DNA of 53,857 nucleotides from Treponema sp. GTDB taxonomy: Bacteria > Spirochaetota > Spirochaetia > Treponematales > Breznakiellaceae. Below are positions 11,219-28,806 of this stretch, in pieces. The translations under genes and the position numbers were made by a program. The DNA lies in the NCBI GenBank assembly GCA_009786455.1, contig WQTD01000006.1, forward strand, positions 9,607 to 63,463, given 5' to 3'. Numbering within the stretch: the stretch's first letter is position 1; every line of letters begins with the position of its first letter. The notes under the pieces are model-generated. The model was not told the DNA's origin. It was given only the letters and a program-made list of their open reading frames with translations, and did not search any database.

Positions 11219-12285
11219 TCAGCAAGTATAAAAGATTTATCAGTTAATGTAAAATTGACTCCTGCCGTTACGCGCACAGTGCTGTCGTCAAATACAAATA
11301 CCGCTTCAGTTTCAGGAAGGGACTCGGCGAGCGTCCTTCCTTTTTCGTATCCCGATACAAAGACTGCCGTCGATAAAGCGTCCGCGTCCATTGAAACAGG
11401 CGTTATAACCGTTACAGAAACAAGACCGTTTTCGGCAGGATACCCGCATGAAGGATCAAAGAGATGATGATATTTTTTTCCGTCTTTTTCGAAATAACGT
11501 TCATAAACGCCGGATGTTACCACACTTTGATTACGCCGATTTGATATGTTTAAAATTCCGATGTATTCGCCGCGATTTGTATTCGGTTTTTGAACGCCCA
11601 CTCTCCACGGGCTTCTGTCTTTTTTTTCTCCGTGTAAAATAATATTTCCGCCAAGATCAATTATCGCGCCTTTAACACCCGCGTTTTTAATAATTAACGT
11701 CGCTTCATCGGCGGCATACCCCTTTGCGATTCCTCCCAAATCAAGAGCCATACCGTTGTTTTTTAGGAAAACGCTTTTTTCCTGCGCGTTCATCTCGATA
11801 TCCTGCCAATTTATGAGAAGCAGCGCTTCTTCAATCTCTTTCCGGGACGGAAGGCGCGGATTATCGCCTGTTATTCCCCAAAGAGACACAAGAGGTCCAA
11901 CGGAAGGATCGAAGGCGCCGTCTGAAATTTGCGCGTAATGGATTGCGCTTTCAATAACCTTGAAAACATCTTCATGAACATTTACAGGAGAAATTCCCGC
12001 GGCGGCGTTTATCCTGCTGATATCGGAAGTTTCTATATTCACGCTCATAAGGTTTTCCATTTCGCGGATTCTGTTAAATATTTTATTGTAAGTATTGCTG
12101 TCCGCTTTATCAAAAAGCGTAACAGTGCAGACAGTTCCCATAGCGAACTCTGAACGGAAAGCCTCAGTTTGCGTACAGGAAGAAAAAACGACAAAAAATA
12201 TCACACAGAGGAAAATAGTTAATTTAAATTCTCCGTGCCGCCGTGCCGCTGTGCGTTGAATTTTCGTGGAATTGTTAAAGTCCAA
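11215..12285 (-). CDS. apbE: FAD:protein FMN transferase (lipoprotein)
   Basis: ApbE attaches FMN from FAD through a phosphoester bond to a Ser/Thr of exported target proteins. Family marks include EFAMGTVCTVTLF, DGAFDPSVGPLVSLWG, ALDLGGIAKGYAADEA, IIDLGGNI, VVTSGVYERYF, HHLFDPSCGYP and MDADALSTAVFVSG. A signal peptide with lipobox FSSC makes it a membrane lipoprotein on the outer side of the inner membrane. The only in-frame start before the signal peptide is a TTG at 12285. The first 20 codons include an odd GC-rich octamer repeat (12233-12256). The gene overlaps the anti-sigma gene, so it is probably under ECF-sigma control. No FMN-binding target domain is visible in the window. Confidence 0.93.
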   Translation of the reverse strand: MDFNNSTKIQRTAARRHGEFKLTIFLCVIFFVVFSSCTQTEAFRSEFAMGTVCTVTLFDKADSNTYNKIFNRIREMENLMSVNIETSDISRINAAAGISPVNVHEDVFKVIESAIHYAQISDGAFDPSVGPLVSLWGITGDNPRLPSRKEIEEALLLINWQDIEMNAQEKSVFLKNNGMALDLGGIAKGYAADEATLIIKNAGVKGAIIDLGGNIILHGEKKDRSPWRVGVQKPNTNRGEYIGILNISNRRNQSVVTSGVYERYFEKDGKKYHHLFDPSCGYPAENGLVSVTVITPVSMDADALSTAVFVSGYEKGRTLAESLPETEAVFVFDDSTVRVTAGVNFTLTDKSFILAD

Positions 12286-14882: not shown

Positions 14883-16019
14883 ATGCGAATTTGGTTTTTG
14901 TTATATTTTATGCTTTTTATGATTAATTTCATATTTTCTCAATCTTTAAATGAGGCTCAAACAGCTGCTAATGACGCTGCCAGAAGATTGGAAGAAGCTT
15001 TTGAAGGTAAATATGGCTTATCAGGGTATTCCCAAAACAACGCCTCCATACAGGTAACCAGAGGAGGAAGGCAGCCTGCCTGGGTTACAGATCCATATTC
15101 GGCTTATTCAAGAAATCATTACATAGCGGCAGTTGGTTTTGCTTCAACCCGCACGGAAGCGGAAAAAAAGGCTTTTGCCGCTCTTGTCTCGTATTTTGGT
15201 CAATCGATAAAGGCGGATATGGAAATTGCTGTTATTTATTCAGAGGCAGTTTCAAATGACGTTGTTATTTTTTCGGAGAATACTCGCGTACGCGATACAA
15301 TCGTAACCGCTGCTTCTCTTGATACGCTTATTGGAGCTGAAATCGGCAGTATCTGGGACGATGGACGCGGAACAATAAATGTCCTTGCTTATATGGAGAA
15401 ATCAAAAACTGTTTCCATTTATACGGATTTAACAATAATCAATAACAGTAACATAGAGCTTCTTACTTCCGTGAGTACGTCTGAAAAAAATTCATTTAAC
15501 GGATATGCCCGTTATAAACTTGCCGCTTTGATTGCCGGTGTTAACGCTGATTATGCAAATATAGTATCGCTTTCCGGCGGCTCAACAGCATCATTGAATT
15601 TAATCAGCGCTGATAAATTAAATCTGGAAATACAACAAATCATACGCGGTATTTCAGTAGGTTTTAATGTTTCCGGAGATAACAATAACCGCGTCAGAGA
15701 CACTTTTGCTAAGGTTTTAAATAATAAAGGATTACGGACACAGGGCAGCAACACTCCGTATGTTCTGGACATTGATATAAATATGGCAGAAGCAGTTTTT
15801 CCCAATAACGCATTTAAATTCTGCCGTTTTACGATTAATGCAAATTTGATTTAAAGAGAGACCGGTTCTGTTGTCCTTCCGTTCAGCATTACTGACAGGG
15901 AAGGACATACAACATACGAAGAAGCTAAAAACAGATCATATCTAAAGATGGAAAGAATTATTTCCGAGAGTTATCCGAAATTGTTCAGCGAATATCTTGC
16001 GGCTTTAGTGCCGTGGTAA
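14883..16019 (+). pseudogene. LPP20-like exported protein, interrupted by one in-frame TAA stop
   Basis: The reading frame has a signal peptide (residues 1-19, cleavage after IFSQS) and an LPP20-like module near residues 60-120 (GGRQPAWVTDPYSAY, HYIAAVGFASTRTEAEKKAF). After 323 codons a TAA stands at 15852-15854. The same frame then continues without a stop for 54 codons to a TAA at 16017-16019. That tail reads like normal protein (ETGSVVLPFSITDREGHTTY, then KMERIISESYPKLFSEYL), typical of the conserved end of these treponemal proteins. A single substitution has therefore truncated the gene, or the read has an error. Without the tail the last domain would lack its final strands and helix. The same domain type recurs in the gene at 17303. 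Confidence 0.8.
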
Positions 16020-16071
16020 TCAATACAAAACTGTTTTCGTATGAGAACAGAAATTTTTTCAGGAGTTTAAA

Positions 16072-16656
16072 ATGAAAAAGACTCTTTTTATAACAATCTG
16101 TTTAGTGACAGCTTTGATAATGTCATGCGCTTCCAGTAAATCAAGCGTAAACACATCGACGCGTCAGATGAACAGCCGAATACCTCAATCCATAAGAGAT
16201 ACAGCGACGAATGTTCCTGAGGACGCTCTTATCGGTATCGGAACAGCGCGTATGGCTTCATTAAGCCAGTCACGCACGATTTCCGCTACAAGAGCGCGCG
16301 CTGAACTTTCACGCCAGATGGATACAATCGTACGCGATATGGTACGCGATTATACAGCGGGCAGTGAAGTGGATCATTCAGCTTCTCTTTCATTTCAGGA
16401 AAATATTACCATAACGCTTTCACAGTCAAGACTTCAGGGTTCTTCGATTGTTGCTGAAGATGAAGATAAAGACGGAAATTACTGGACAGCTATTATGCTC
16501 AGTAAAAGCAGTGTTGTTAATGAAATAAATCAGGCGGTATCCACAGCTAAATTACGGGTTCCTGCAATGGCTTCCTTCGACGCAGAAAGAAGAATGAATG
16601 ATGCTTTTGATAAATTTTTGAATAATAACCAGCTTGGTTATTCGGATAAGGATTAA
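16072..16656 (+). CDS. Lipoprotein, LPP20-like family (tandem copy 1)
   Basis: A 194-residue protein with a lipoprotein signal (LIMSC lipobox, Cys at about residue 19), so it should be lipid-anchored in the envelope. The mature part is a treponemal LPP20-type module: VPEDALIGIGTARMASLSQS, TRARAELSRQMDTIVRDMV, then SFQENITITLSQSRLQGSSI. An AGGAG ribosome binding site lies six bases before the ATG. The next gene is a close paralogue of identical length, showing tandem duplication. No biochemical function is known; LPP20 domains occur in surface lipoproteins. A small hairpin (CTGTT/AACAG) lies in the leader just upstream. Confidence 0.75.
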   Translation: MKKTLFITICLVTALIMSCASSKSSVNTSTRQMNSRIPQSIRDTATNVPEDALIGIGTARMASLSQSRTISATRARAELSRQMDTIVRDMVRDYTAGSEVDHSASLSFQENITITLSQSRLQGSSIVAEDEDKDGNYWTAIMLSKSSVVNEINQAVSTAKLRVPAMASFDAERRMNDAFDKFLNNNQLGYSDKD

Positions 16657-16661
16657 ATATC

Positions 16662-17246
16662 ATGAAATTTGGTTTAGTTGTTTTATTGGCTTTATTTATA
16701 TCCTTTTCAGTTTATGGAGGCGGAAAAAAAGAAGCGGCAGCGCCTGCTGCCCAGCAGCGCCAGGTAGACAGCAGAGTTCCTCAATTTGTAAGGGATGCAA
16801 TAAGGAATGTGCCGGAAGATGCTTTAATTGGAATTGGTACGGCAAGATCGGCGTCTCTTAGTCAATCACGGACAGTTGCCGGAACAAGAGCCCGCGCTGA
16901 AATTTCCCGCCAGTTGGATACATTTATCAAAGATATGATCCGTGATTATACAGCAGGCAGCGAAGTGGATCATTCAGCGGCTCTTTCATTTCAGGAAAAT
17001 ATTACTGTAGCAATCTCTCAGTCAAGACTTAGAGGCGCTTCTATTGCAAACGAAGATCTTGATGAAAAAGACAACTACTGGGTAGTGGTTATGATGAGTC
17101 TGAACGGAGCTGTCAATGAAATAAATCAGGCTGTATCTGCAGCAAAACTGGTTGTTCCTGCTTTTGCATCATTTGACGCGGAAGAGCGTATGAATGAAGC
17201 GTTTATGAAATACTCCTGGTCTGAGATAGGATTTGCAGGTGATTAA
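16662..17246 (+). CDS. Exported LPP20-like protein (tandem copy 2, no lipobox cysteine)
   Basis: The mature region is very similar to the preceding gene: the GSEVDHSA segment is identical, and VPEDALIGIGTAR, SFQENIT and VNEINQAVS are shared. The two are tandem duplicates of 194 residues each. The signal peptide has diverged. This copy ends ISFSVYGGGKKEAAAP with no cysteine, so it is probably secreted into the periplasm or medium rather than lipidated. The spacing to the first copy is five bases. An AAGGA ribosome binding site overlaps the upstream stop, and a strong hairpin terminator follows the gene at 17257. Divergence in localisation after duplication is the notable point. Confidence 0.72.
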   Translation: MKFGLVVLLALFISFSVYGGGKKEAAAPAAQQRQVDSRVPQFVRDAIRNVPEDALIGIGTARSASLSQSRTVAGTRARAEISRQLDTFIKDMIRDYTAGSEVDHSAALSFQENITVAISQSRLRGASIANEDLDEKDNYWVVVMMSLNGAVNEINQAVSAAKLVVPAFASFDAEERMNEAFMKYSWSEIGFAGD

Positions 17247-17256
17247 CTTGCATCTT

Positions 17257-17289
17257 AAGACAGGATAAAAATTGATTTTATCCTGTCTT
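17257..17289 (+). terminator. Intrinsic transcription terminator
   Basis: AAGACAGGATAAAA (17257-17270) pairs perfectly with 17276-17289 across a five-base ATTGA loop. The 14-bp stem is followed only by a short T-rich tail, so it may act less as a sharp terminator and more as an mRNA 3' end. It separates the tandem lipoproteins from the gene at 17303. Confidence 0.65.
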
Positions 17290-17302
17290 TCTTAACAATT
17301 AT

Positions 17303-18061
17303 ATGAAAACTTTAACTGTTTTAACATTAATTTTTATCTTTTCAGGTTCAGCCGCCTGCATGGAATTTTCCATGCAGGAACAATATAATACCGACCGCTG
17401 GTTTATGCTGCCTTCAGACAACAAACTGATTGTCATAGGCATATCAAACCCAATGATTAAAAGACAGGATGAAATTATATCAGCCAAAGAAGACGCCGCA
17501 AGGAAAATAGCAATGTTTTTCGGCGTACACGGAACAGTTGAAGTAACAAACAGTATCGGTTCTAATATTCTTGATTATTCGCACGAATCAAATATTAGTT
17601 TGTCTTATGATTCTGATTATGAAAGTTTTATAGATAAATTAAAATATGATCCCAAGGATATATTAATAACAGCCGAAGCTGTTTTTATCAGGTTTTGGTT
17701 TGATGCGGATATTGACGGAATTAATTATACTGCTGATACCGGCGTAAACCGTCCGGCATGGACCAGAAATCAGGATTTACCGGATATTCCCGGTTACGTG
17801 ACGTCAGTAGGATTTGCGCGTAATCAGCGCAGGCTGAAAGATACAATTTTCAAATCAACTGAAGATGCCATTACAAGAATGATAGCTGATCTTCACACCG
17901 TTATTAATACAAAAGAAATTTCAATTGCAGGAAAAAATTCATCCAGTTACATTCATACCAAGAGCGAAGGTAATATAAATAATTTTCATGTTATTGAGTT
18001 ATGGATAGATCCAGATACACGTTTTGTCTATACGCTTGCGGTTGCGAGAAAGGGAATTTAA
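17303..18061 (+). CDS. Exported LPP20-like protein
   Basis: The 252-residue protein has a signal peptide (MKTLTVLTLIFIFSGSAAC). The cysteine at 19 has only a weak lipobox context, so lipidation is uncertain. Two related modules are visible: residues about 36-120 (NKLIVIGISNPMIKRQDEII, EDAARKIAMFFGVHG) and about 150-235 (RPAWTRNQDLP, GYVTSVGFARNQRRLKDTIF, TEDAITRMIADL). Both follow the 'W/P---Y---VGFA----EA---A' pattern seen in the broken gene at 14883. It begins a run of three tightly linked genes, with the M48 protease starting on the base after its stop codon. A shared role in envelope protein assembly or turnover is inferred from this coupling. Confidence 0.65.
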   Translation: MKTLTVLTLIFIFSGSAACMEFSMQEQYNTDRWFMLPSDNKLIVIGISNPMIKRQDEIISAKEDAARKIAMFFGVHGTVEVTNSIGSNILDYSHESNISLSYDSDYESFIDKLKYDPKDILITAEAVFIRFWFDADIDGINYTADTGVNRPAWTRNQDLPDIPGYVTSVGFARNQRRLKDTIFKSTEDAITRMIADLHTVINTKEISIAGKNSSSYIHTKSEGNINNFHVIELWIDPDTRFVYTLAVARKGI

Positions 18062-18925
18062 ATGCGTAAAATATATTTTTTCTTTGGAATCTTGTTTTTC
18101 TCGCAGACTATTTTTCTTTCCGGGCAGTCTTTTGGACAAATTGAAAGTTATTTTTCCGAAATGGACAGAATTTTTAATGAAATGGAATATACTCCTTCAC
18201 CGGAGGAAGAGTATTATCTTGGAAGAGCTGTAGCGGCGAATATTCTGGCGTCTTATAAATTGTATACAGAAAAACCTGAACAACAGATATATTTAAATAT
18301 GATCTACCAAACTTTAGTTATAAATTCATCTTATCCGTTTTTGTATAACGGTTATTTTGTAATGATTCTTGATAATCCTGAATTTAACGCTTTTGCGACT
18401 CCGGGCGGTCATGTTTTTTTAACAAGAGGGCTTGTAGAAGCCGCTCCTTCAGAAGACGCGCTGGCAGGAATTATAGCTCATGAACTAGCGCATATTATGC
18501 TCAGGCACGGTATAAAAATCATTAATGATATGAAAATAACAACAGAAATTGATTTAACGACTCAAATGGCGGCATCTTTTTCAGGAAATAAAAACAAACA
18601 AATTTCTGTTTTCAGAGATTCTGTAAATGATGTATTTTTCAGCATAACAAAGAGCGGGTATTCAATACCCCAGGAATATGAAGCGGATAATAAAGCCGCC
18701 GAACTTATGGTCATGGCAGGTTATAATCCGGGTGAATTTTTAGAAATGTTAAAAATACTGCAAAGGATTCAAAAAAATAAAAATGGAGGATTTAATGATA
18801 CGCATCCTTCACCGGCGCAGCGTATAGCAAATTTAGAGAAGCAAATACACAGGTATAAAGAAACTATCGTTAATAACAACAGAAAAGAGCGTTTTAACAA
18901 TGTTATGGGATATGATCATGAATAA
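18062..18925 (+). CDS. M48 family metalloprotease (exported)
   Basis: This is a zinc endopeptidase of the M48 (HtpX/LoiP/BepA-like) family. An N-terminal signal peptide (residues 1-22) precedes the catalytic domain. The zinc motif is HELAH at residues 140-144, and the third ligand is Glu205 in QEYEADNKAAELM. The upstream NAFATPGGHVFLTRGLVEA and downstream THPSPAQRIANLEK are also family features. At 287 residues it lacks the C-terminal TPRs of BepA, so it is closer to LoiP/YfgC-type short periplasmic proteases involved in outer-membrane quality control. Its ATG follows the previous stop codon with no gap, and its end overlaps the next gene by eight bases, so the three are one operon. Confidence 0.9.
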   Translation: MRKIYFFFGILFFSQTIFLSGQSFGQIESYFSEMDRIFNEMEYTPSPEEEYYLGRAVAANILASYKLYTEKPEQQIYLNMIYQTLVINSSYPFLYNGYFVMILDNPEFNAFATPGGHVFLTRGLVEAAPSEDALAGIIAHELAHIMLRHGIKIINDMKITTEIDLTTQMAASFSGNKNKQISVFRDSVNDVFFSITKSGYSIPQEYEADNKAAELMVMAGYNPGEFLEMLKILQRIQKNKNGGFNDTHPSPAQRIANLEKQIHRYKETIVNNNRKERFNNVMGYDHE

Positions 18926-21137
18926 AAAAATTTTAATTTTTTTCATAATAGTTTTTCTGACGTTCTCTTTATTGGGTTGCAAAAGTACAGGAAAAAGTCG
19001 AAATGATACAACACCGCAGGTTCTAAAGACCCCAACAGGGGATGATATCAACAAAATGGAACTTACTATTGTAGCTCCAAATGCAAGAGGACTTAATGAA
19101 AATGAAAATTATCTTCCTACGCTGGTACAAGGAGAATTTGTCAGCAATTTTACAGGTTATTCTGTAATTTCTGTGCGGGATCGTGAACGTCTTGATGATC
19201 AATACGCTGAACTTTTATCCGGTTATTATGATGATAGCGCTGATGAAAGTCTTGGGCGGTTAATTCCAACAAGTCATTTAATGGGAGGTAATATTACAAA
19301 GACTGCTACAGGATACGCCCTTCAAATGTTTATAACCAGAAAATCAGATAAAATGACAATAGCTTCTTATTCAGGAACATTCACTTTTGTTGAACTTGAT
19401 AATCTTACAGGAGTACGGCGTGCCTCACTGGCTTTATTTGAGAGATTGGGCGTACCAGTTACCTCACAGACAAGAAATGAACTTTCCAAAGCAGCAACGG
19501 ATAACCATGTCAATGCACAAACAACTCTTGCAAGAGGTATTACAGCCGAAAGACAAGGAACAGTAGAAGCTCTTAACTATTATAATCAGGCAGCTATTTA
19601 TGATCCTACTTTACTGGAAGCTGCAAATCGTCTATCAAGATTGAACACAAATGTTTCAAGCGGGAATCTTGGTGAAGCAATACGTAACGATATTGCAGAC
19701 CGTAGGAATTGGGTTGCGCTTCTTACTGAAACAGAACAATATTTTGACAGTTTTCACCGCTCGCAATCAATGCCTTATACATTATTCTATCTTAATGACA
19801 TAAAGCGGGGAACAACAAACTATCAGAACGAAACAGTAACACTTAGTACAGAAACATATCTATACAGCAGTGGAGTTTGGTCGCTTTCCATCGAACGCAC
19901 TTTACAGGCTATATATGACGGTTTAAGAGCTACAGGAAAAGCAAGTACTTGGGAGCTGAGTAATTGGCCTCAGCGCGGTGTTACCAATTTAAATGCCTTT
20001 GCAGAAAAACGCGATAATTTTTCTGTTGTATTTGAACTTGTGAACAGCCAGAATAAAGTAATCGGCAGGCAAACCTTGCAAGCAGGAGGTTCCTGGAGTT
20101 TGAACTGGAGCGGCCGACCAAGTGTTAATCTTTCCTCGGCAGACAGGAGAACTATAAATTTCCAGAATGTAGACGTAAAAGAAATAACTGATAACTTGAC
20201 TATACGTATTGCAACTGTAAATGGAATTGACGGAGAAACTGCCGCAAGGAGCGGGGTTTTACAGATACGCCCTATTACAAAAGCAGAAGTTGACAGGAAT
20301 GATAGATTCAGATATTCAAAAGGCGAGATACAAGGTTTTGCAAATTATACTACCAATGCAGGAAGAACTGATATTCCGAGTGTTATATGGGGTGATCCCG
20401 TCCTTTCAATCAGGCAGGAAGCATTCAAAAATACCGGAGTAACAATTTTAACCCTTCCAAACAGCATTACTGTAATTAATGAGAAATTATTAAGTAATAC
20501 CGGATTAACCGGCGTAATCATTCCTAACAGCGTTACTGTAATTGGTAATAATGCATTTAGTAATAACTCATTAACAAATGTTTCCATTCCCAATAGTGTT
20601 GTATCAATTGGCGATGAAGCATTCAGTAATAACCCAATTAACAATTTAAATATAGGTAATAATGTTACTTCTATCGGTGCCAGAGCATTTCAAAACAATA
20701 ACTTAACCAGTGTAACTTTACCGGAAAGCGTTACTGTTATTGGAGAAGCAGCCTTTCAAAAACACAGTACTTCTGAAGTACCAGGAGTAATAAAAAATAT
20801 TAATATAGGTGCTAATGTTATTTTACCATCGAATACATTCCGTATTTCCTGGAGATACTATAATGAAGGAAATCTTTATGAAGGTGAAAGAAACGGTACA
20901 TTTAATCAATTTTATACTACCAATAACAAAAAAGCCGGTACATATAATTTAATTTCTAGTGCTAATTTTATTGCTAGCGACAATTCAATCTGGTTTTATG
21001 GAGATAACGAAACAGCGAAGAAAAAAAATACAATTAATAAAACAATTTTTTGGGCTTCAAGTATAACCGCAATGGCAGCCTTTTTCGGAGTATTATATTT
21101 ACTTCGGGATAAACCTGTTGAAGGTCCGGTTTATTAA
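18918..21137 (+). CDS. Lipoprotein with CsgG/LpoB-like N-domain and BspA-type leucine-rich repeats
   Basis: Starting at the ATG at 18918 (739 residues), the protein has a lipoprotein signal (FSLLGC). An N-terminal domain follows that resembles CsgG/LpoB-like modules of treponemes: LTIVAPNARG, LPTLVQGEFVSNFTGYSVIS, VRDRERLDDQYAELL, then LMGGNITKTATGYALQMFI. Residues about 195-250 look like TPR helices, and 260-470 are an unrecognised beta region. About five BspA/TpLRR repeats (NNSLTNVSIPNSVVSIGDEA type) span DNA 20410-20760. A final transmembrane helix near the C-terminus (TIFWASSITAMAAFFGVLYL) is unusual for an outer lipoprotein and suggests two anchors. It overlaps the M48 protease gene by eight bases. 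LRRs of this type bind host or partner proteins. Confidence 0.75.
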   Translation: MNKKILIFFIIVFLTFSLLGCKSTGKSRNDTTPQVLKTPTGDDINKMELTIVAPNARGLNENENYLPTLVQGEFVSNFTGYSVISVRDRERLDDQYAELLSGYYDDSADESLGRLIPTSHLMGGNITKTATGYALQMFITRKSDKMTIASYSGTFTFVELDNLTGVRRASLALFERLGVPVTSQTRNELSKAATDNHVNAQTTLARGITAERQGTVEALNYYNQAAIYDPTLLEAANRLSRLNTNVSSGNLGEAIRNDIADRRNWVALLTETEQYFDSFHRSQSMPYTLFYLNDIKRGTTNYQNETVTLSTETYLYSSGVWSLSIERTLQAIYDGLRATGKASTWELSNWPQRGVTNLNAFAEKRDNFSVVFELVNSQNKVIGRQTLQAGGSWSLNWSGRPSVNLSSADRRTINFQNVDVKEITDNLTIRIATVNGIDGETAARSGVLQIRPITKAEVDRNDRFRYSKGEIQGFANYTTNAGRTDIPSVIWGDPVLSIRQEAFKNTGVTILTLPNSITVINEKLLSNTGLTGVIIPNSVTVIGNNAFSNNSLTNVSIPNSVVSIGDEAFSNNPINNLNIGNNVTSIGARAFQNNNLTSVTLPESVTVIGEAAFQKHSTSEVPGVIKNINIGANVILPSNTFRISWRYYNEGNLYEGERNGTFNQFYTTNNKKAGTYNLISSANFIASDNSIWFYGDNETAKKKNTINKTIFWASSITAMAAFFGVLYLLRDKPVEGPVY

Positions 21138-21190
21138 TATGAAAATTTCGTCGTTGGCGAAAATTGCAATATTTTTTTTGGAGATTTTTT

Positions 21191-21628
21191 ATGAAAGATA
21201 GAAAAACATTTTTGATTTTTCTGATTTGTATTTTTAGTTTGGGATTAATAGTCTCTTGCGATAATTCGGAAGATCAAATATTTATTGTTGAAGGCGATGA
21301 CAGCGCTAACACAACCGGTAATAAAAAAGGAATAATTGTCTTTTCAAATAATTCCAGTTATAACGAAGACGCTATCGTAACAGTCGATCTTGTCAGATTT
21401 TTCAGTTTTGACGGCAGTGATAGTGAAACAATAATTATTACATGTAAAGTGACCGCTGGTAAGACCATTACATATAAAGAAATACCGCTTAATTATACAT
21501 ATTTTATAAAAGTAACTGATTCAACAGGGAAAAAATATAATTCTGGCAAAGGGAAAGCTGCTCAGGGAAATGTATACAGATTCTCTTATGACGGAGGTTA
21601 TATATCAAGTCCTTGGTGGTGGAATTAG
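21191..21628 (+). CDS. Small lipoprotein of unknown function
   Basis: The start at 21191 is set by GGAG seven bases upstream; an in-frame ATG at 21164 lacks a ribosome binding site. The 145-residue product has a lipobox (GLIVSC, Cys at residue 24), an acidic linker (EDQIFIVEGDDS) and a small beta domain. That domain has alternating hydrophobic strands (KGIIVFSNNS, AIVTVDLVRFFSF, ETIIITCKVTAGKTITYKE, YTYFIKVTDSTGKKYNSG), like a one-domain immunoglobulin or transthyretin-type fold. It ends in SSPWWWN. It follows the LRR lipoprotein on the same strand and is the last gene before the cassette array. I cannot assign a family. Confidence 0.65.
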   Translation: MKDRKTFLIFLICIFSLGLIVSCDNSEDQIFIVEGDDSANTTGNKKGIIVFSNNSSYNEDAIVTVDLVRFFSFDGSDSETIIITCKVTAGKTITYKEIPLNYTYFIKVTDSTGKKYNSGKGKAAQGNVYRFSYDGGYISSPWWWN

Positions 21629-21783
21629 AATTTTTATAAGAAAAATTAATTAGGGGGAAATAAAAGGTAAAGTAAAAAGATTAATTTCTAATGATTATCC
21701 TTTTGTATTGGAAATGGTGAGGTGTTTTGTAATGGGTGTTGTGTCATGTAAAATACGTTAAGTGCCATATATCCTAAGATATG

Positions 21784-21812
21784 TTGACATTAAAAAAAGA
21801 ATAGAGTAAAAT
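21784..21812 (+). promoter_or_regulatory. Promoter inside cassette 1
   Basis: TTGACA (21784-21789), exactly 17 bases, TAAAAT (21807-21812). It lies 27 bases after the start of the R' site at 21757, within the same cassette. A strong AAGGAGG ribosome binding site (21830-21836) then precedes the ATG at 21841. Confidence 0.7.
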
Positions 21813-21840
21813 AAATATAGTTATTTGTTAAGGAGGTTAT

Positions 21841-23715
21841 ATGAAAAAAGGTATAATTTTAACGATTTTATTAGTGAGTGTACTTTCAATAAGTTTTCCC
21901 CAGACTGGTGACACTTACTCAGTTAGTAATGTATCTACATGGATAGAAGCTGTAAATGGTGTAAGGAGTGGAGGTAATAATAGAGAGTACACGATTATTG
22001 TTACTGCTAATGTTTCTGTACCACCGAGCTCTGAGAATACATTTGGTTCTGTTACTGGCATAAAAATAAACATGGAAGGTAATGGTAGTCTTTCCCCATC
22101 TAACAACGGTGTATTACTGATAATTGGTACAGACCAAACAATTGTAGCTAAAAATGTTTCATTACGAGGTCGTTCTAATAATGGTTCCTTTTCAGTAGTT
22201 AGAGTTATGAATGGAAGTATGTTCCAAATGGAAGGCAATGCTTCTATAACAGGTAATAGCATAGACGGTGTCGGCGGTGGTGTTTTGGTTGAGGGGGGTA
22301 CTTTCATTATGAAGGATGATGCCTCGGTATCGAGCAATGTTACTAACAACGGCAATGGTGGCGGAGTGCATGTTAGCAGTGGGACTTTAATCATGCAAGA
22401 CAACGCCACAGTGTCGAGAAATACTGCTACCGGCTATTATTCTGGAGGTCAGTGGCGGAGAGCTGGTGGTGGACAAGGTGGCGGTGTGTATAGTAATGGT
22501 ACATTTACTATGCATGGGAATGCCTCAGTGTCAGGTAATACCGTTACTATTAATAGTAGAAGTGATGGTTGGGGTACTGCTAGATGCAACGGTGGCGGCG
22601 TATTCAATCAAGGTACTTTCAATATGCATGATAATTCTACAGTTACAGGAAATACAAGCAGCGCAATAGATGGTTATGGAGGAGGTGGTGGAATATATAA
22701 CGGAGGAACCCTCACTATGCAAAATAGTGCTACGGTAACTAATAATAAAAGTATTTCCAACAATAGTGGTTACTTTGGTGGTGCTGGAGGAGGAGGTGTG
22801 TATAATGATGGAGGCACTTTCACTATAAAAGAAAGTGCCTCAGTATTTGAAAATAATGCTAGTTTTAATGGAGGTGGGATATATAACAGAGGTATATTAA
22901 ATATGAGAAATAATGCCTCAGTTTCTAATAATACTTGTGGTATCGATAATTCTGGAGGTGGTGGCGTGTTTGTTTACAGTGGTACTTTTACCATGTATGA
23001 AAGTACTTTAGTATCAGGCAATATCGCTAATTTGGGTGGTGGAGTATATATAAATGGTGATTCTTTATACAGAAATAGAGGAACCTTCATCATGCAGGAC
23101 AATGCTATAATTTCTGGTAACATTGCCAACATTAGTGGTGGTGGGGTGTATATAAATAGTAGCGAAAACTTTATTGGTACTTTCAATATGCAGGGAAGTG
23201 CAATAATATCAAATAATAATGCTACATATTACGGAGGCGGTGTTTTTAGCAACGGGACTTTCGCAAAAAGTGGCGGAATCATCTATGGTGATGATGCAGA
23301 GCAAACCCAAATAAATACTGTTATTAGTAAATTTGGTCATGCTATTTATGAACCAAAGAATGGTGGTTGGAGAAATGCTAGTGCTGGATCAACAATGAAT
23401 ACCGATTCATACGGATTCTGGCTTAATGATGGCGATATTGTTAGATTTCTTTTTTCGGAAACTGTTTCTGAAAGTACATGGAGAAGATCAAACTTTAACA
23501 ACACTCTAACTCTTACACATAACATGATAAAATCCAGTAGCAGTAATAATCTTTGGGTTCTTCAGAGCATTTCTGGCAACGCATACACATTCAGGCGAAG
23601 TAATGCAACAAATATGCTTACAATTACTATCAGATTTGAAAATAATAATCTTGTAATTAGCGGTGATAGTGGTAGTGGTCAAGACAATTGGAATGGCACT
23701 TGGGCTAGACGATAA
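21841..23715 (+). CDS. Secreted beta-helix repeat protein (polymorphic outer membrane protein-like repeats)
   Basis: The 624-residue protein has a signal peptide (residues 1-20, cleavage near SFPQT). It contains eleven copies of a GGG(V/I)-containing repeat between residues about 125 and 490. Each has the form GGGVY-NGTFTM--NASVSGNT, of 25-40 residues, which is the chlamydial Pmp-like/pectate-lyase style of right-handed parallel beta-helix. The C-terminal 110 residues form an antiparallel beta domain resembling lipocalin-like modules (SYGFWLNDGDIVRFLF ... GTWARR). No autotransporter beta-barrel or LPXTG sorting signal follows, so it is secreted or peripheral. It has a very strong ribosome binding site and its own promoter, and forms cassette 1 of the array. 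A role in adhesion is inferred from repeat type only. Confidence 0.8.
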   Translation: MKKGIILTILLVSVLSISFPQTGDTYSVSNVSTWIEAVNGVRSGGNNREYTIIVTANVSVPPSSENTFGSVTGIKINMEGNGSLSPSNNGVLLIIGTDQTIVAKNVSLRGRSNNGSFSVVRVMNGSMFQMEGNASITGNSIDGVGGGVLVEGGTFIMKDDASVSSNVTNNGNGGGVHVSSGTLIMQDNATVSRNTATGYYSGGQWRRAGGGQGGGVYSNGTFTMHGNASVSGNTVTINSRSDGWGTARCNGGGVFNQGTFNMHDNSTVTGNTSSAIDGYGGGGGIYNGGTLTMQNSATVTNNKSISNNSGYFGGAGGGGVYNDGGTFTIKESASVFENNASFNGGGIYNRGILNMRNNASVSNNTCGIDNSGGGGVFVYSGTFTMYESTLVSGNIANLGGGVYINGDSLYRNRGTFIMQDNAIISGNIANISGGGVYINSSENFIGTFNMQGSAIISNNNATYYGGGVFSNGTFAKSGGIIYGDDAEQTQINTVISKFGHAIYEPKNGGWRNASAGSTMNTDSYGFWLNDGDIVRFLFSETVSESTWRRSNFNNTLTLTHNMIKSSSSNNLWVLQSISGNAYTFRRSNATNMLTITIRFENNNLVISGDSGSGQDNWNGTWARR

Positions 23716-23740
23716 AAATATAGAGTACGGACAAACGGCA

Positions 23741-23790
23741 TATAACAAACAATAACTGCTACGCCGCCTGTTCGGCGGCTTGGGTTAAAT
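23741..23790 (+). mobile_element. Truncated attC-like recombination site
   Basis: The site begins TATAACAAAC and runs through AATAACTGC to a GCCGCC/GGCGGC hairpin (23763-23779), ending in an R'-type GTTAAAT (23784-23790). Its first ~40 bases follow the left half of the complete attC at 24551 (TAACAAA, TAACT, CGCC...CGGCGGCT-GG), but the long right half is missing. It sits between the first two cassettes. Confidence 0.55.
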
Positions 23791-23822
23791 AGAGTGTTTT
23801 GCGCAATAATATTGTTTTGTAA

Positions 23823-23853
23823 TTGACAAGATTAGATAAATATACTGTATAGT
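23823..23853 (+). promoter_or_regulatory. Promoter inside cassette 2
   Basis: TTGACA (23823-23828) and TATAGT (23848-23853) are separated by 19 bases, with a TG just before the -10 box. The promoter starts 39 bases after the R' site at 23784, as in the neighbouring cassettes. Confidence 0.45.
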
Positions 23854-23899
23854 ATGGAAAAATAATAGTCAAACGGACTTTAAACGTAAAGGGATATGT

Positions 23900-24538
23900 A
23901 TGTTAGACTTTGTAAAAAGATCTTTTCGGAATGGTATTGAAGTAATTCTTTGGATTAATCTTATTTTATCTACAATCATTGGAGGATTTGCTGGTTATTA
24001 TATTGGCCAATTGATTAATTATCGGAATGCTGGTGGATATACCTTTTTAGGAGTTTTAATTGGTTTAATCATTGGGCTTTTAATGGACATTGTTGGTGGA
24101 GGATTTATTGTAACAATAATTTGTATTGAAAGAAATATAAAAATGCAAAATCAATTACAAAAAAAATTATTAATACATTTTGGAATATCTGAAAAAATTA
24201 TTGATAATATTATTGAAACTGATGAGTCAAGAGAAAAAACAGAAGAAGTAAATAATACCATATCTGTTGATGAAAAATTGTTGAATAATAAAATAAAAAT
24301 AAAAAGAATTAAAAATGATTCTGGTTCCGCCATACCAATTGAAATAATTATTGATGGAAAAAACCCATTAGAGTTATTACATGATGATGAAAAAATACTT
24401 GATATAGTAAATGGAAATCATTTAATAGTAGCATGTTATTATGGAGATGAAGTAAAAGCTGAATTTGTAATAAATAATGATTCAAAAATAATAAATATTT
24501 TTACTTCTCCAAAATTGAATATAAAAATGAATAAATGA
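23900..24538 (+). CDS. Membrane protein of unknown function (cassette 2)
   Basis: I do not recognise this 212-residue protein. The first 90 residues hold two hydrophobic segments rich in glycine (LILSTIIGGFAGYYIGQLI and FLGVLIGLIIGLLMDIVGGG), making a membrane hairpin. A polar, Lys/Asp/Asn-rich linker follows (residues 95-140). The C-terminal 70 residues form a predicted all-beta domain (PIEIIIDGKNPLELLHDDEK, GNHLIVACYYGDEVKAEFVI) like the small carrier-type domains that follow 'IDG' strands. The gene is very AT-rich compared with the housekeeping genes on either side of the island. It lies alone between two attC-like sites with its own promoter, as expected for an integron cassette. Confidence 0.6.
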   Translation: MLDFVKRSFRNGIEVILWINLILSTIIGGFAGYYIGQLINYRNAGGYTFLGVLIGLIIGLLMDIVGGGFIVTIICIERNIKMQNQLQKKLLIHFGISEKIIDNIIETDESREKTEEVNNTISVDEKLLNNKIKIKRIKNDSGSAIPIEIIIDGKNPLELLHDDEKILDIVNGNHLIVACYYGDEVKAEFVINNDSKIINIFTSPKLNIKMNK

Positions 24539-24550
24539 AAAAATTACTTA

Positions 24551-24723
24551 GCTTAACAAAAGGTAACTTCTTCGTCGCCTTTCGGCGGCTCGGCTTCCGT
24601 AAAACACCGTTCGGGCTTAGCCATCTGCGATGTTTTGTTCCAGTACATTTTTGCTGTTGCTGAAATTACTTCGTAATTCCTTAATTGCAACAGCAAATAC
24701 GTCAGTTACCTAGAACGTTAAGT
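24551..24723 (+). mobile_element. Complete attC recombination site of an integron cassette
   Basis: The 173-base site has both simple sites of a classical attC: R'' GCTTAAC (24551-24557) and R' GTTAAGT (24717-24723), sharing a 6-bp complementary core (CTTAAC/GTTAAG). Just inside, AGGTAAC (24561-24567) pairs with GTTACCT (24705-24711), the L''/L' boxes. The centre folds further (GCTGTTGC/GCAACAGC and AATTAC/GTAATT arms). This two-ended imperfect palindrome with conserved ends and a variable middle is how integron integrases recognise cassettes as folded single strands. The sequence resembles T. denticola attC sites from memory, which I could not check. Confidence 0.82.
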
Positions 24724-24751
24724 GCAATTATATTGAAATTTAATAAAATAC

Positions 24752-24780
24752 TTGACTTAAAAATTGTAAAAAAGCATAAT
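24752..24780 (+). promoter_or_regulatory. Promoter inside cassette 3
   Basis: TTGACT (24752-24757), exactly 17 bases, CATAAT (24775-24780). It lies 35 bases after the R' site at 24717. GGAGG (24806-24810) then serves the ATG at 24819. Confidence 0.65.
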
Positions 24781-24818
24781 AAAATAAAGTGGAATGAATA
24801 TTATTGGAGGTAATTAAA

Positions 24819-25580
24819 ATGATAATTATTCAAATTTTTGGTTGGATCTTATTTGTGGTGTTTCCTGTAATCTTTTTTATTATATTAAAAACAGGAAAAC
24901 TGAGAAGTTCGGATAAAATAGAAAAAGTAAAATCAATTGCTTGTTTTGTTTTGATGGGCATCTTTGCTTTAGGAGTAATATCAAGCCTTTTATCGCTTTT
25001 AATGCAGCTTTTCTGGTTCAGGCTTCCTACTTTTTTATGGCAGTTTTTATCTTTGTGGGGTTTACGTCCTGATATTGTCTATACAAAATTTTCGCTTTTT
25101 GGTTGGTTCCATCCATTTAACGATAATTTATTTAATCTCCTTTTTTCAGGTGGCATGATTTTCGTTTATGTCGCAATGTCAGGTTTATTAAGAAAAGGAG
25201 GGAATTATTTTTTAATGAATGAAAATCAAGTCGTGTCAAAAGTTGATTCCCCTAATAATCTTGACAACTCAAATAAAATTGAATCAAAATATTATGGAGG
25301 AGTTTTACCTATTTTCCTATTTTGTATTTGGGCTCCTTTTCTTTTGGTATTTTCACTTGGTTTAGCAACTCCATTTATTATATGTACAGTAATAAGATGG
25401 ATTTGCAATAATTCCAACATTGATGGAAAAAAGTACGGATTCAAAGGAACAGCAATGGGTTTATTTGGTCGTTGGATATTATGGTATATTCTAACTATTA
25501 TAACTATTGGTATTTATGGTTTTTGGTCAACAAGAAACCAGATCAGGTGGGTTGTTGAGAATATAGAAATGATTGATTAA
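24819..25580 (+). CDS. Multi-pass membrane protein with C-terminal DUF898-like domain
   Basis: The start at 24819 follows GGAGG by eight bases; a TTG at 24804 in frame is less likely. The 253-residue protein has three to four N-terminal transmembrane helices with a loop between. A C-terminal domain of two to three helices ends KGTAMGLFGRWILWYILTII, then TIGIYGFWSTRNQIRWVVEN. That tail matches the DUF898 (YjgN-like) pattern 'F-G---ELF----L--ITLGIY-PW---R-----N'. DUF898 proteins are uncharacterised inner-membrane proteins. It is the first of two genes in cassette 3, followed after 61 bases by a TM2-domain gene. The gene is strongly AT-rich. The role is unknown. Confidence 0.7.
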   Translation: MIIIQIFGWILFVVFPVIFFIILKTGKLRSSDKIEKVKSIACFVLMGIFALGVISSLLSLLMQLFWFRLPTFLWQFLSLWGLRPDIVYTKFSLFGWFHPFNDNLFNLLFSGGMIFVYVAMSGLLRKGGNYFLMNENQVVSKVDSPNNLDNSNKIESKYYGGVLPIFLFCIWAPFLLVFSLGLATPFIICTVIRWICNNSNIDGKKYGFKGTAMGLFGRWILWYILTIITIGIYGFWSTRNQIRWVVENIEMID

Positions 25581-25641
25581 CAATTTATTACAATAGTTGG
25601 TTTTTTGATTATTCTAAATGTTAAATCAGAGTGGGATATTT

Positions 25642-25863
25642 ATGGAAAGACGTATTGACAAACATATTTTTATAATCATTGGAACCTTTTTCTTTGGTTA
25701 TTTTGGTGTAGATAGATTTTTAAGAGGTCAAATTGGATTTGGTATTTTAAAAATTCTAATTGATTGGCTTGCTATTTGGGCAATAATTGATTTAATAATT
25801 GCATTAACAAAGTACGGTCAACATAAGGAAGAATTTGTGTTTGTTGATGGGAAATGGGCATAA
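25642..25863 (+). CDS. TM2 domain-containing protein
   Basis: The 73-residue protein is essentially a TM2 domain: two transmembrane helices (FIIIGTFFFGYFGVDRFLRG and GFGILKILIDWLAIWAIIDL) joined by the short turn containing the family DRF motif (GVDRFLRGQ). It ends with a Lys-Tyr-Gly loop and FVFVDGKWA. I chose the ATG at 25642; the ATG at 25618 would add eight residues. TM2 proteins are common small inner-membrane proteins of unknown function. It is the second gene of cassette 3, which is uncommon because most integron cassettes carry a single gene. Confidence 0.8.
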   Translation: MERRIDKHIFIIIGTFFFGYFGVDRFLRGQIGFGILKILIDWLAIWAIIDLIIALTKYGQHKEEFVFVDGKWA

Positions 25864-25896
25864 TATTTCTTAAAAATATAAAAGCAAAAAACCAGC

Positions 25897-25912
25897 ACTT
25901 AACAAACAAATA
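25897..25912 (+). mobile_element. Partial attC (R'' half) at the end of cassette 3
   Basis: ACTTAAC (25897-25903) matches RYYYAAC exactly and continues AACAAAC, the same left-end sequence as in the sites at 23741 and 24551. Nothing resembling the rest of an attC follows, as a ribosome binding site (AAGGAG) and the next gene begin within 15-25 bases. It marks the likely right edge of the array. Confidence 0.5.
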
Positions 25913-25926
25913 TTTAAGGAGTTTAT

Positions 25927-26427
25927 ATGAAAAACAAGAAAGTGATTTTGGGAACTATCTTAATGGTAATATTTATTCTAATGTTATTACCATATACGGG
26001 ATGCACTGGTAATAAAAAAGACGGATCTTCGAGTGGTAAGGCAGTTTTCAGCCAGAAAGCTGACCCCGAAGATGATTTTACAGCAGAACCAATTGATGGA
26101 GGGAAGGGAGTAGCGATTACAGGATATGTGGGCTCAAAATGGGAAATCAATATTCCTTCAACAATACGGAATTTACCTGTTACACATATTGGAAGTGGAG
26201 CATTTAAAAATTTGATCAGTGTAATCATACCGAACAGTGTTACCCATATTAGGGATAAGGCATTTGCCGGAAACCAACTGACCAGCGTAACCATACCAAA
26301 CAGTGTTACCCACATTGGGGATAGTGCATTTGCCGGAAACCAACTGACCAGTGTAACCATCCCGAACAGCGTTATACATATCGAGAGAGGGGCATTTGAT
26401 TTATATACCAAAATAATAAGGCAGTAA
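25927..26427 (+). CDS. BspA-type leucine-rich repeat lipoprotein
   Basis: The 166-residue protein has a hydrophobic signal and a lipobox-like LPYTGC (Cys at about residue 25). A linker and a small domain follow ([33 protein letters not shown]), the typical N-cap of BspA-like proteins. Then come just over three LRR_5/TpLRR repeats of 22 residues ([21 protein letters not shown] type). The protein stops shortly after the third repeat, so it is a minimal member. An AAGGAG ribosome binding site precedes the ATG. BspA-type proteins of oral and gut treponemes bind host or bacterial surfaces; a surface-exposed adhesive role is inferred from that family. Confidence 0.8.
26233..26400 (+). repeat. 66-bp near-identical tandem repeats coding for leucine-rich repeats
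   Basis: Units begin at 26233, 26299 and 26365, each 66 bp (22 codons), with units 1 and 2 nearly identical in DNA. The low synonymous divergence suggests recent unit duplication, so repeat number may vary between strains. Confidence 0.75.
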
Positions 26428-26561
26428 ATATTTAAAATGAATATTTTTTATATTAAAAAAATGGCAATCTTACACAATCTACCGTTCGTGGAAGCTTGTT
26501 GTTTAATTAAAATTGGATTGTAAAAGCGTCCATAAATATAAAAAATTATGAGGAGACTAAA

Positions 26562-27389
26562 GTGAACAAAAAGTTAATGAGAATGACCGTACTGATTATA
26601 TTTCTATTAACGATACAATTTATCTACGGGCAGAATATTGAGATGGTATTTATATCCGGCGGCGTTTTTACAATGGGAAGTCCCGGAAATGAGGTAAATC
26701 GCAATAGTGATGAATTCCAGCGACAGATAACATTAGGACCTTTTTTTATTGGGAAATATACTGTAACACAGGCTGAATATGAAAGAATAATGGGAAAAAG
26801 CCCAAGCCGTTTTAAAAAGGAAGGAGACAATTTACCCGTAGAAAATGTCACATGGTTTGACGCTATAGAGTTCTGTAATAAACTTAGCGAGCTTGAAAAG
26901 TTAACGCCTGTATATGCAATAACAGGAACAGGTAATGAGAGGACAGTTTCATGGAATCGAAATGCAAATGGATTTCGTTTACCTACTGAAGCGGAGTGGG
27001 AATACTCATGCCGCGCGGGAACAAATACAGCATTTAATACAGGAAATAATGTTGGAACTTATGAGGCAAATTATGACGGTAAATCCCCGTACAATAATAA
27101 TGCCGCCGGAGCTTATATACGAAAGACAGTGCCTGTAGGAAGTTATCAAGCCAATGAGTGGGGTTTATATGACATGCACGGAAATGTTTGGGAGTGGTGC
27201 TGGGACTGGTATGGCAATTACGCAGCAGGAGCTCAGACAAATCCCATAGGACCGGCTTCAGGAACATACCGTGTATTGCGCGGAGGATCATGGTTTGACG
27301 GCGGAAGAAATCTCCGGTCAGCGGCGCGGTTCAATTATTACCCCGGCAACAGAAATTATTTTTTTAGTTTTCGCATTGCCAGATCATGA
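26562..27389 (+). CDS. Formylglycine-generating-enzyme-fold (SUMF1/FGE-sulfatase domain) exported protein
   Basis: A GTG start follows GAGGAG by five bases. A signal peptide (residues 1-24, ending IYGQN) is followed by one FGE-sulfatase domain. EMVFISGGVFTMGSPGNEVN, FFIGKYTVTQAEYERIMGK, PVENVTWFDAIEFCNKLSEL, FRLPTEAEWEYSCRAG, GLYDMHGNVWEWCWDWYG and YRVLRGGSWFDGGRNL are all standard. The two copper-binding cysteines of true formylglycine-generating enzymes, which follow the RGGS motif, are missing (SWFDGGRNLRS). It should therefore not oxidise sulfatase cysteines. Such domains often act as carbohydrate or ligand binders; spirochaetes carry many copies. It stands alone with no sulfatase nearby. 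Confidence 0.88.
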   Translation: MNKKLMRMTVLIIFLLTIQFIYGQNIEMVFISGGVFTMGSPGNEVNRNSDEFQRQITLGPFFIGKYTVTQAEYERIMGKSPSRFKKEGDNLPVENVTWFDAIEFCNKLSELEKLTPVYAITGTGNERTVSWNRNANGFRLPTEAEWEYSCRAGTNTAFNTGNNVGTYEANYDGKSPYNNNAAGAYIRKTVPVGSYQANEWGLYDMHGNVWEWCWDWYGNYAAGAQTNPIGPASGTYRVLRGGSWFDGGRNLRSAARFNYYPGNRNYFFSFRIARS

Positions 27390-27447
27390 GTTTTACTGTA
27401 CCAAAGTAAAATGATTATAAAGTTACAAATAACAGGAGAAAAAGGAA

Positions 27448-28806
27448 ATGAAAATTTCTGAAAAAATAAATGAAATGGGTGAATCTGTAAAATCAAAAAC
27501 AAATCAATTTGTTTTTGATTCAAAAGCAGGGGATTTTTTAAAAGCTATGAAAAATCGAATGGGTATAGGTTCGCCGGAACGAAATGCTACAGATACTTAC
27601 GAGCGTGAATTGGCTATTGTTCCCGATTGTATCAGCGCTAACGAGAATGAGATAGCGGTTAAGCAGTATAACATCGCCGTTATGCGAAACCTGCTGAAAT
27701 TCGAACGCGCGGAAGGACGCATGCAGGTTACGAATAAACGAATTATTTTCCGCGCTGCAGGCCGTTCAGTCGGCGGCAGAACCACATTACAGCATGAGTT
27801 TGCCGTTAATGAAATTGCGGGAATTGAAGCGAGAAATAATTATAAATTCAGCTTTATGTATTTTATATTTGCATTGTTAATTATTGGTTTGGCTTTTTTT
27901 ATTATTTGTTTTTGGCCGTTTACCGGAATATTATCTCCAATAGACTCGCAATCCGTTCGTATTTCTGGTATTTTATATCCTAAACATGTGGAAAAAGCAT
28001 ATTCAGAAGAAAGAGCAGCAATTTCCAGAACAAGGCAAGCCGGAACAAATATTACTGAAGCTGCGGAAAGAATAAAACAAGCGTATGAAAAAGAAGAAGC
28101 AGCAGGTCTAAACGTAAGAAATGGCATTGAAAAAACAAGAAGAGTTCTATATGACTATGATTGGTATGACAGGCCGCTATACAGGAATGAAACATACCGG
28201 GACAGAACACCGGCAGGTTTAATGGAAGCTCAAAATGCATTGGATTCTGCTATAGACGCAAGAGAGTATGCAGAAGCAGAAGAACAAAGATTTATCGCGG
28301 AACTGGAAATCGCTAAAGAAAATGAAGCAAACACGATTAGAAATAGGGAAGATATTGTTGCAAGATGGAGAGCATTAATGACCATATTTGGTTTTGTGTT
28401 AGGTATCATATGTTTAATTCCATTTTTTATATTTTATAAAAAATTCGGTCTTAAACTTTTTTTTCTTAACTTTAGTATTTTTGGGTTTTCTTTGGCATTG
28501 GCAGCGTCAGGAAGCAGGTTTTTTCTTATACTTTTTTATATTTCATGTATTACAGCAATTATTTGTATCTTCCTGTATTGCTTCAGACCAAATCTGATAA
28601 TCAGTATAAAAAACAAAGGCGGAGAAAAAGCTGCAGTTGATATTCGCAGAGATACATTGTTCACAAAAAACAGAGAAATAGGGACAGGATTTATGGAAGT
28701 ATTTCCTACAGAAGAAACCGAAGGCGCAATTCGTGAAATCGGCGCAATGATCGGAGATATTCAAAAACTGGGTGATTTAGGTCTGGGGAAATGGGCAAAA
28801 AAGTAA
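27448..28806 (+). CDS. Membrane protein with bacterial PH-like domain and coiled coil
   Basis: The 452-residue protein has no recognised full-length family. Residues about 70-130 resemble a bacterial PH/GRAM-like domain (LLKFERAEGRMQVTNKRIIF, LQHEFAVNEIAGIEARNNYK). A transmembrane helix follows (about 133-155). Residues about 165-300 are charged, Glu/Arg/Ala-rich and strongly predicted to be coiled coil, interrupted by an aromatic YDYDWYDRPLYR stretch. Three further transmembrane helices (about 308-385) precede a cytoplasmic C-terminal segment. The N-terminal PH-like and C-terminal parts are probably cytoplasmic, with the coiled coil outside. It is the last gene of the accessory island, with an AGGAG-type ribosome binding site and convergent to uvrC. 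The function is unknown. Confidence 0.55.
   Translation: MKISEKINEMGESVKSKTNQFVFDSKAGDFLKAMKNRMGIGSPERNATDTYERELAIVPDCISANENEIAVKQYNIAVMRNLLKFERAEGRMQVTNKRIIFRAAGRSVGGRTTLQHEFAVNEIAGIEARNNYKFSFMYFIFALLIIGLAFFIICFWPFTGILSPIDSQSVRISGILYPKHVEKAYSEERAAISRTRQAGTNITEAAERIKQAYEKEEAAGLNVRNGIEKTRRVLYDYDWYDRPLYRNETYRDRTPAGLMEAQNALDSAIDAREYAEAEEQRFIAELEIAKENEANTIRNREDIVARWRALMTIFGFVLGIICLIPFFIFYKKFGLKLFFLNFSIFGFSLALAASGSRFFLILFYISCITAIICIFLYCFRPNLIISIKNKGGEKAAVDIRRDTLFTKNREIGTGFMEVFPTEETEGAIREIGAMIGDIQKLGDLGLGKWAKK

Follow-up and report, generated by a model that had tools for sequence, protein, structure and literature searches.

The stretch analysed here, referred to below as the window, comprises 53,857 nucleotides of a Treponema sp. 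contig of 90,676 bases (C6:9607-63463; GenBank WQTD01000006.1), and its subject is a short array of gene cassettes bounded by recombination sites of the integron type. The contig belongs to a genome bin (G000) of 2.35 Mb in 85 contigs that is 86% complete. Three cassettes follow an attI-like site, and each is followed by an attC site or by what is left of one. The features of the array and of the genes directly after it are as follows.

21717..21765, plus strand: putative attI-like site that heads the array, with R' GTTAAGTGC at 21757-21765; ranks first among the attI-like sites of the contig
21841..23715, plus strand: cassette 1 gene, 624 amino acids, repetitive and by eye similar to a right-handed beta-helix, with no Pfam match at E 0.001
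23738..23787, plus strand: left half of the cassette 1 attC, with R'' GCATATAAC at 23738-23746, L'' and the first stem; the right half has been lost or has decayed; nhmmer E 4e-11
23900..24538, plus strand: cassette 2 gene, 212 amino acids, which by eye looks like a membrane protein and matches no Pfam family at E 0.001
24549..24725, plus strand: complete attC of cassette 2, with R'' at 24549-24557, L'' at 24561-24568, L' at 24704-24711 and R' at 24717-24725
24804..25580, plus strand: cassette 3 gene, 258 amino acids (alternative start ATG at 24820); weak DUF898 match, under the cut-off
25618..25863, plus strand: second open reading frame of cassette 3, TM2-domain protein of 81 amino acids (PF05154, 32.5 bits)
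25895..25907, plus strand: remnant of the cassette 3 attC, consisting of R'' GCACTTAAC (25895-25903) and an AAAC spacer
25927..27389, plus strand: BspA-type leucine-rich-repeat (LRR) lipoprotein (25927-26427) and FGE-sulfatase-domain protein (26562-27389); possibly further former cassettes, with no recognisable attC

Collectively, these features support the view that the window holds a decayed integron cassette array, in which three cassettes stand behind an attI-like site and their attC are preserved as a half, as a complete site and as an R'' stub. A first-pass annotation of the sequence had proposed a cassette array without an integrase. The array, in decayed form, and the lack of an integrase on the contig have both stood up to analysis, as has the single orientation that was claimed for it, with all of the genes named lying on the plus strand; the comparison to the integron of T. 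denticola has not, as described below.

The complete attC, for which matching boxes had been described at 24551-24723, is confirmed. The boxes read R'' GCTTAAC (24551-24557), L'' AGGTAACT (24561-24568), L' AGTTACCT (24704-24711) and R' GTTAAGT (24717-24723), and together they form the sole site returned by a simple R''/L''/L'/R' detector on the contig, with none in five shuffles. A single strand of the site folds with a z-score of -3.2. A covariance model built from 30 aligned attC sites also calls the site, at 153 bits for 24549-24725, a score that is not independent because the site is itself among the 30. An Rfam search of the window gave zero matches. At the other end of cassette 3, the R'' half that had been noted at 25897 is in fact a full box (GCACTTAAC, 25895-25903) that is the exact reverse complement, over nine of nine positions, of the start of the same cassette (GTTAAGTGC, 24717-24725), and the AAAC spacer that follows it is common in this attC family. 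The R boxes at the two ends of a cassette match at 6/6 positions for cassette 3; the figure for cassette 1 is 4/6.

Two of the boundaries first proposed required revision. The partial attC of cassette 1 is a genuine left half of a family site (E 4e-11), yet its extent is 23738-23787, with a weak extension by the model to 23892 (32 bits), and the GTTAAAT at 23784 that had been read as its R' was rejected since it aligns with internal sequence of the attC family. Likewise, the reading of GTTAAGT at 21757 as an attC right end was rejected, its score being -5.6 bits versus 31.3 for 24717. No other site on the contig is as attI-like, with 12.8 bits for 21757 on a 16-site profile against 4.6 for the runner-up. 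This score is partly due to the R box; the upstream sequence alone gives 1.6 bits, which places it in the top 0.16% of 3,124 GTT positions. The extended R' word GTTANRYGMMAT was also considered as stand-alone proof of cassette boundaries and was rejected, there being 13 copies on the contig versus about one per order-2 shuffle. The roughly tenfold excess of this word is an observation in its own right, with most copies outside of the array (among others at window positions 13080, 32900, 33788, 41880, 41982 and 48086).

An integrase was not found on the 90.7-kb contig: none of the nine Phage_integrase matches of the genome lies on C6, and a tblastn search of the contig with the recombinase described below gave nothing better than E 1.8. 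The integron hallmark of an attI adjoining an integrase gene is therefore represented in the window by the attI-like site only, and the array is probably static or movable solely in trans. A cluster of attC sites lacking integron integrase (CALIN) is defined by two or more attC with no integrase nearby. The window resembles a CALIN in having attC sites with no integrase found on the contig, and differs from it in having just one complete attC, accompanied by remnants (the half attC and the R'' stub), and an attI-like site at its head.

Sites and cassettes in related genomes

Three sets of genomes were compared, consisting of 39 genomes of the genus (own included), 195 genomes of the family to which the window belongs (56 genera) and 390 genomes sampled from the order. 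With the complete window attC alone as a blastn query, matches were obtained in 24 of the 38 congeneric genomes, or 25 of 39 with its own. The covariance model extends the attC family to at least 163 of the 195 family genomes and at least 47 of the 56 genera; these counts are floors, because no more than 14 candidates were scored per genome and the filters were strict. The own genome has six attC at E 0.001 or better, of which two are on C6, one is on C46 and three are on C58, a contig where attC sites lie on either side of a tyrosine recombinase gene.

Sites of this family are mostly about 145-175 bp in length and show the covariation expected of paired arms, with L'' and L' matching at 5.53 of six positions within a site versus 3.96 across sites (66 sites, 18 distinct L' words). 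An inner CGTC beside L' is conserved in 51 of the 60 sites with a clear L pair. What the sites mostly lack is the extrahelical base in the L'' arm that is expected of an integron attC. An L'' bulge gives strictly the best pairing in just 3 of 70 sites, versus all 44 canonical sites from the order; the remaining sites pair equally well without a bulge (55), pair best with an L' bulge (9) or are ties between the arms (3).

The arrangement of these sites shows that cassettes have been shuffled. Among 36 neighbouring pairs of cassette start and end boxes, compared at six variable positions, 28 match at 6/6, seven at 5/6 and one at 0/6, the last probably being a wrongly assigned box. By comparison, the two boxes of one attC match at 3.82 positions on average versus 3.58 for random pairing, and none of 20,000 permutations reached the observed sum. 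A canonical control of 40 pairs gave 4/4 in 36 and 3/4 in four. Since the ends of one cassette match while the boxes of one site agree barely beyond chance, cassettes appear to circulate, with matched ends that are independent between neighbours as in integrons. A direct trace is found in the 4,059,867-base genome G141, where one cassette is present twice, the copies being 99-100% identical over about 1,400 bp from the GTT to the end of their own attC and unlike thereafter. This duplicate indicates that an attC travels with the gene on its left and that the crossover falls in R', as in known integrons. The longest open reading frame runs in the direction of the site in 31 of 35 cassettes. The relatives have arrays in which most cassettes point the same way and carry their attC at the 3' end, and the window retains a short and decayed array of this kind.

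The cassette proteins of the window are themselves patchily distributed, with relatives of the cassette 2 protein in 7 of 195 family genomes and of the cassette 3 protein in 19 of 195 (own included in each). This outcome of the presence and absence comparison that the first-pass annotation had suggested favours cassettes. When 20 loci with these relatives were scanned for attC, two gave strong matches, two gave weak ones and 16 gave none. A cassette 2 relative is flanked by two attC in L291, and a cassette 3 relative is flanked by attC matches of 95 and 21 bits in L278; the weak cases are L275, where a cassette 3 relative lies beside a match of 29 bits, and L288, where a match of 31 bits is on the other strand. 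No common gene order was found among the loci that were compared with the window, in what is a thin test of synteny.

The recombinase and its attI sites

The recombinase gene on C58 (L017:1755-2957, minus strand) encodes a protein of 401 amino acids that is related to integron integrases but is missing their additional I2 domain. Its match to the integron integrase model TIGR02249 falls into two pieces, residues 4-177 and 233-314, with the stretch between them missing, and reaches 210 bits versus a cut-off of 265, the value above which a protein is called IntI here. The linker that holds I2 is 50-51 amino acids in 25 IntI, 18-23 in the treponeme clade and 19 in the C58 protein. The catalytic residues R, K, H, R, H and Y are all retained, and the best match in the PDB is 2A3V ('IntI4'), again in two pieces that flank the insertion. 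The protein scores 206 bits with the XerA-like model NF040815 ('site-specific tyrosine recombinase/integron integrase'), below the cut-off of 220, and it resembles these proteins further in that I2-less relatives occur in many phyla. It differs from them by an N-terminal extension of about 110 amino acids and by the attI and attC arrays alongside. No convincing Pfam family was found for the extension in any of 30 members; it may resemble HARP domains.

In trees from an alignment of 135 sequences that included the 25 IntI, the treponeme clade (support 100/99) and IntI (100/100) form two separate clades, both with full support. Placement of the I2-less clade within IntI was considered and lacks tree support, while the relation of the two clades among the I2-less XerA-like proteins is not settled by the trees. 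The data also allow IntI and the I2-less clade to form a single clade (p-AU 0.85, the tree constrained in this way being 28.7 log units better than a quick free tree), and loss, primary absence and independent origin are therefore all compatible with the data. The recombinase is not orthologous to the resolvases of chromosome dimers, since the XerC- and XerD-like genes are separate, on C13, and fall outside of the clade. Matches resembling the I2-less integrase also occur in two sister families (G206:C158 or L269, G232:C297 or L270, and other f4/f5 genomes), and the attC family model found no site on the two f4/f5 contigs examined.

Linkage of the recombinase to attC sites was counted in 44 loci, a set that excludes L081 (outside the clade), L120 (another lineage) and L201 (the second half of the L200 gene). 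In 19 of these, a same-strand attC lies within 5 kb downstream of the recombinase, at 686 to 3,885 bases. In a set of 19 loci with a first attC, L120 among them, the space between the recombinase and that attC was searched for an attI word, taken as the complement of the first R''. An exact word is present in 15 of the 19 loci, C58 included, a word with one mismatch in three and none in one (L215). In control trials with the words of other loci, 1.9% of 322 were exact and 19% had one mismatch, and on the opposite strand 0/19 were exact. Since foreign words reach one mismatch in 19% of trials, the 15 exact words count as evidence and the three with one mismatch were rejected. Of the 18 words, 17 are located 46 to 544 bases past the stop codon and the other, in L074, at 1,165 bases, all in a context that is loosely conserved. 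The loci of the relatives thus show an attI that adjoins the recombinase gene.

The same layout of recombinase, attI and attC recurs outside of the treponeme clade. In L120 (9779-11809), from the Spirochaetota metagenome-assembled genome Seed_metabat.82, an I2-less integrase is followed by an attI-like word at +100 and a single attC of 102 bp, and this was the only match of the attC family model among 80 named loci. A generic attC detector found sites in five of six treponeme loci, in 3 of 25 IntI loci and in 4 of 56 other I2-less loci; its zeros are uninformative for the I2-less relatives in other phyla, because most IntI loci were missed too.

The own bin holds a second, cut copy of the same type of integrase on C18, with 64% residue identity to the copy on C58. 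This contig (L018:1-4116) matches part of C179 in G161 (L082:1779-5894) at 100% identity over 4,116 bases, G161 being a bin of another species of the genus, which implies that one of the two bins carries a foreign contig. The shared stretch includes clpB together with the I2-less integrase, and C58 has a different clpB-integrase pair.

Readings of the array

From the sequence evidence, it is quite probable that the arrays of the genus and family are served by the tyrosine recombinase without I2 and that the window is a decayed remnant of such an integron. The sites, their linkage to the recombinase, attI, the boundaries and shuffling of cassettes and the absence of I2 and of the L'' bulge can be read from the sequences themselves. 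The I2-less recombinase would then be the catalyst, and the hairpin form of the site its substrate. The recombinase gene adjoins attI, cassettes would form circles that integrate through a crossover at the GTT of R', be it that of attI or of an attC, and each cassette has its own attC at the 3' end. The sites keep their hairpin stems with covarying L boxes and lack the extra L'' base. Since this is the base that I2 is reported to dock, recognition would follow a route independent of I2, and most likely the enzyme reads a folded or cruciform site through the R and L boxes, the unequal spacers and the inner CGTC.

Several observations weigh against this reading. Recombination itself is unobserved. 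In the window, cassette 1 has half of an attC and its R boxes agree at 4/6, which is the level of chance, and the attI call at 21757 rests on a profile whose 16 members themselves range from -6.7 to 34.8. A same-strand attC within 5 kb is missing from 25 of the 44 recombinase loci. For 12 of these the contig continues for less than 1 kb beyond the gene, a truncation that repeats would produce, and for 13 it runs further, three of the 13 having an attC on the other strand nearby. Four of the 19 attI cases fall short of an exact word. Several attC-bearing genomes of the genus, most of them incomplete, show no such recombinase. The choice of loci was also partly informed by attC, with G141, G139, G187, G023 and G004 picked after attC were known on their contigs, and some loci of the genus had already shown attC matches before selection. 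Lastly, the own bin may be mixed and C58 need not share a cell with the window; the family-wide case is independent of where C58 is placed.

An alternative that credits a canonical, I2-bearing IntI with building the arrays, either in trans or in the past and now lost, and that makes the I2-less recombinase a bystander or gives it another job, appears improbable. Canonical IntI are common enough in the order (80 of 390 genomes, five of the 195 in the family and none of the 39 in the genus), and one study reports that the extrahelical bases are docked by I2, that IntI1 no longer functions once I2 is deleted and that I2 is necessary for cassette capture (PMC7790495). Of the five family genomes that bear IntI, however, four have no site that matches this attC type and the fifth does not appear with one under the strict filters, and the family model gave zero matches in their integrase loci. 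Most of the sites are without the L'' bulge used by IntI, arrays are shuffled across genera without IntI, and the I2-less gene stands beside attI in 15 of the 19 loci with a first attC, which include L120 of another Spirochaetota lineage.

Cassettes are known to insert at genomic sites (attG) as well, and those of the window could have entered an ordinary GTT site away from attI, with no integron platform at all. This would agree with a contig on which no integrase or remnant was found and with an assembly that does not put the array near an integrase. The sequence to the left of 21757 with its R box is nevertheless the most attI-like GTT site on the contig, also standing high by its upstream sequence alone, and such an insertion is regarded as rather doubtful. 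Far harder to believe is that the likeness to attC is a matter of chance or of some other stem-loop repeat. Motifs like the R box are common on the contig, as the count of GTTANRYGMMAT attests, but the full site is absent from the shuffles, and the homology across the family, the covariation, the linkage to the recombinase, the duplicated cassette and, with particular strength, the matching of cassette ends all speak against it.

Returning to the reading of the window as a remnant of an I2-less integron, one of the closest known systems is the chromosomal integron of T. denticola and its relatives, which the first-pass annotation had named for comparison in T. denticola. The two share attC arrays, an attI, matched cassette ends and a recombinase that is transcribed towards the array (the reverse type) (PMC3607928). 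The likeness fails in the particulars. Arrays of the T. denticola type (family f3) have a full-length IntI and attC of 63-68 bp with an L'' bulge, whereas the window's family has an I2-less recombinase and longer, mostly bulge-free sites. One f3 genome is presumably that of T. denticola itself. In one f3 array of this type (L273), the attC family model gave four matches, all of them weak (10-15 bits, E from 0.04 to 0.9), at 3506-3572, 5100-5166, 5765-5831 and 11309-11371, all on the opposite (minus) strand and two of them on canonical attC, a pattern as if the polarity of the site were mirrored.

The accepted rule makes I2 obligatory for an integron integrase, and by it the system is not an integron; by its layout and its traces of movement, it appears to work like one. 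We lean towards a second kind of integron in termite-gut and related spirochaetes, in which I2 was never present or is unneeded and attC have no extrahelical base, representing either a stage that preceded I2 or an independent invention from a XerA-like recombinase. In the literature, I2 and single-strand recombination are described as exclusive to integron integrases with intermediates lacking (PMC7790495), and archaeal IntI are said to share the additional domain (PMC9668308). No report of an I2-less integron appeared in the literature surveyed, which consisted mostly of titles and the openings of abstracts.

The attC and I2-less recombinase system is carried by G139 and G141. These genomes are presumably those of T. 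azotonutricium and T. primitia. Both species were reported to be without integrons by Wu et al. (2013, PMC3607928), and they may have been so described because searches for canonical IntI would miss the system. With attI, attC and shuffled cassettes that occur across the family in the absence of I2 and the L'' base, the claim that I2 is necessary becomes directly testable. If the system is working, its sites in at least 163 of the 195 family genomes would make it a widespread means of gene exchange.

Genes around the array

The array lies within a longer run of plus-strand genes (window 14883-28806) that includes LPP20-like and, by eye, M48-like proteins as well as BspA LRR and FGE-domain proteins, and this run may represent a longer fossil array. 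A scan with nhmmer found no attC remnant around the LRR and FGE-domain genes of the window. Relatives of these genes (25927, 26562 and 18900) do occur on attC-bearing contigs (L097, L213 and L234), which suggests that the old array may have been longer, a point for which site remnants give no proof. The neighbouring gene at 27448 has relatives in 4 of the 39 genomes of the genus, own included, one of them marginal.

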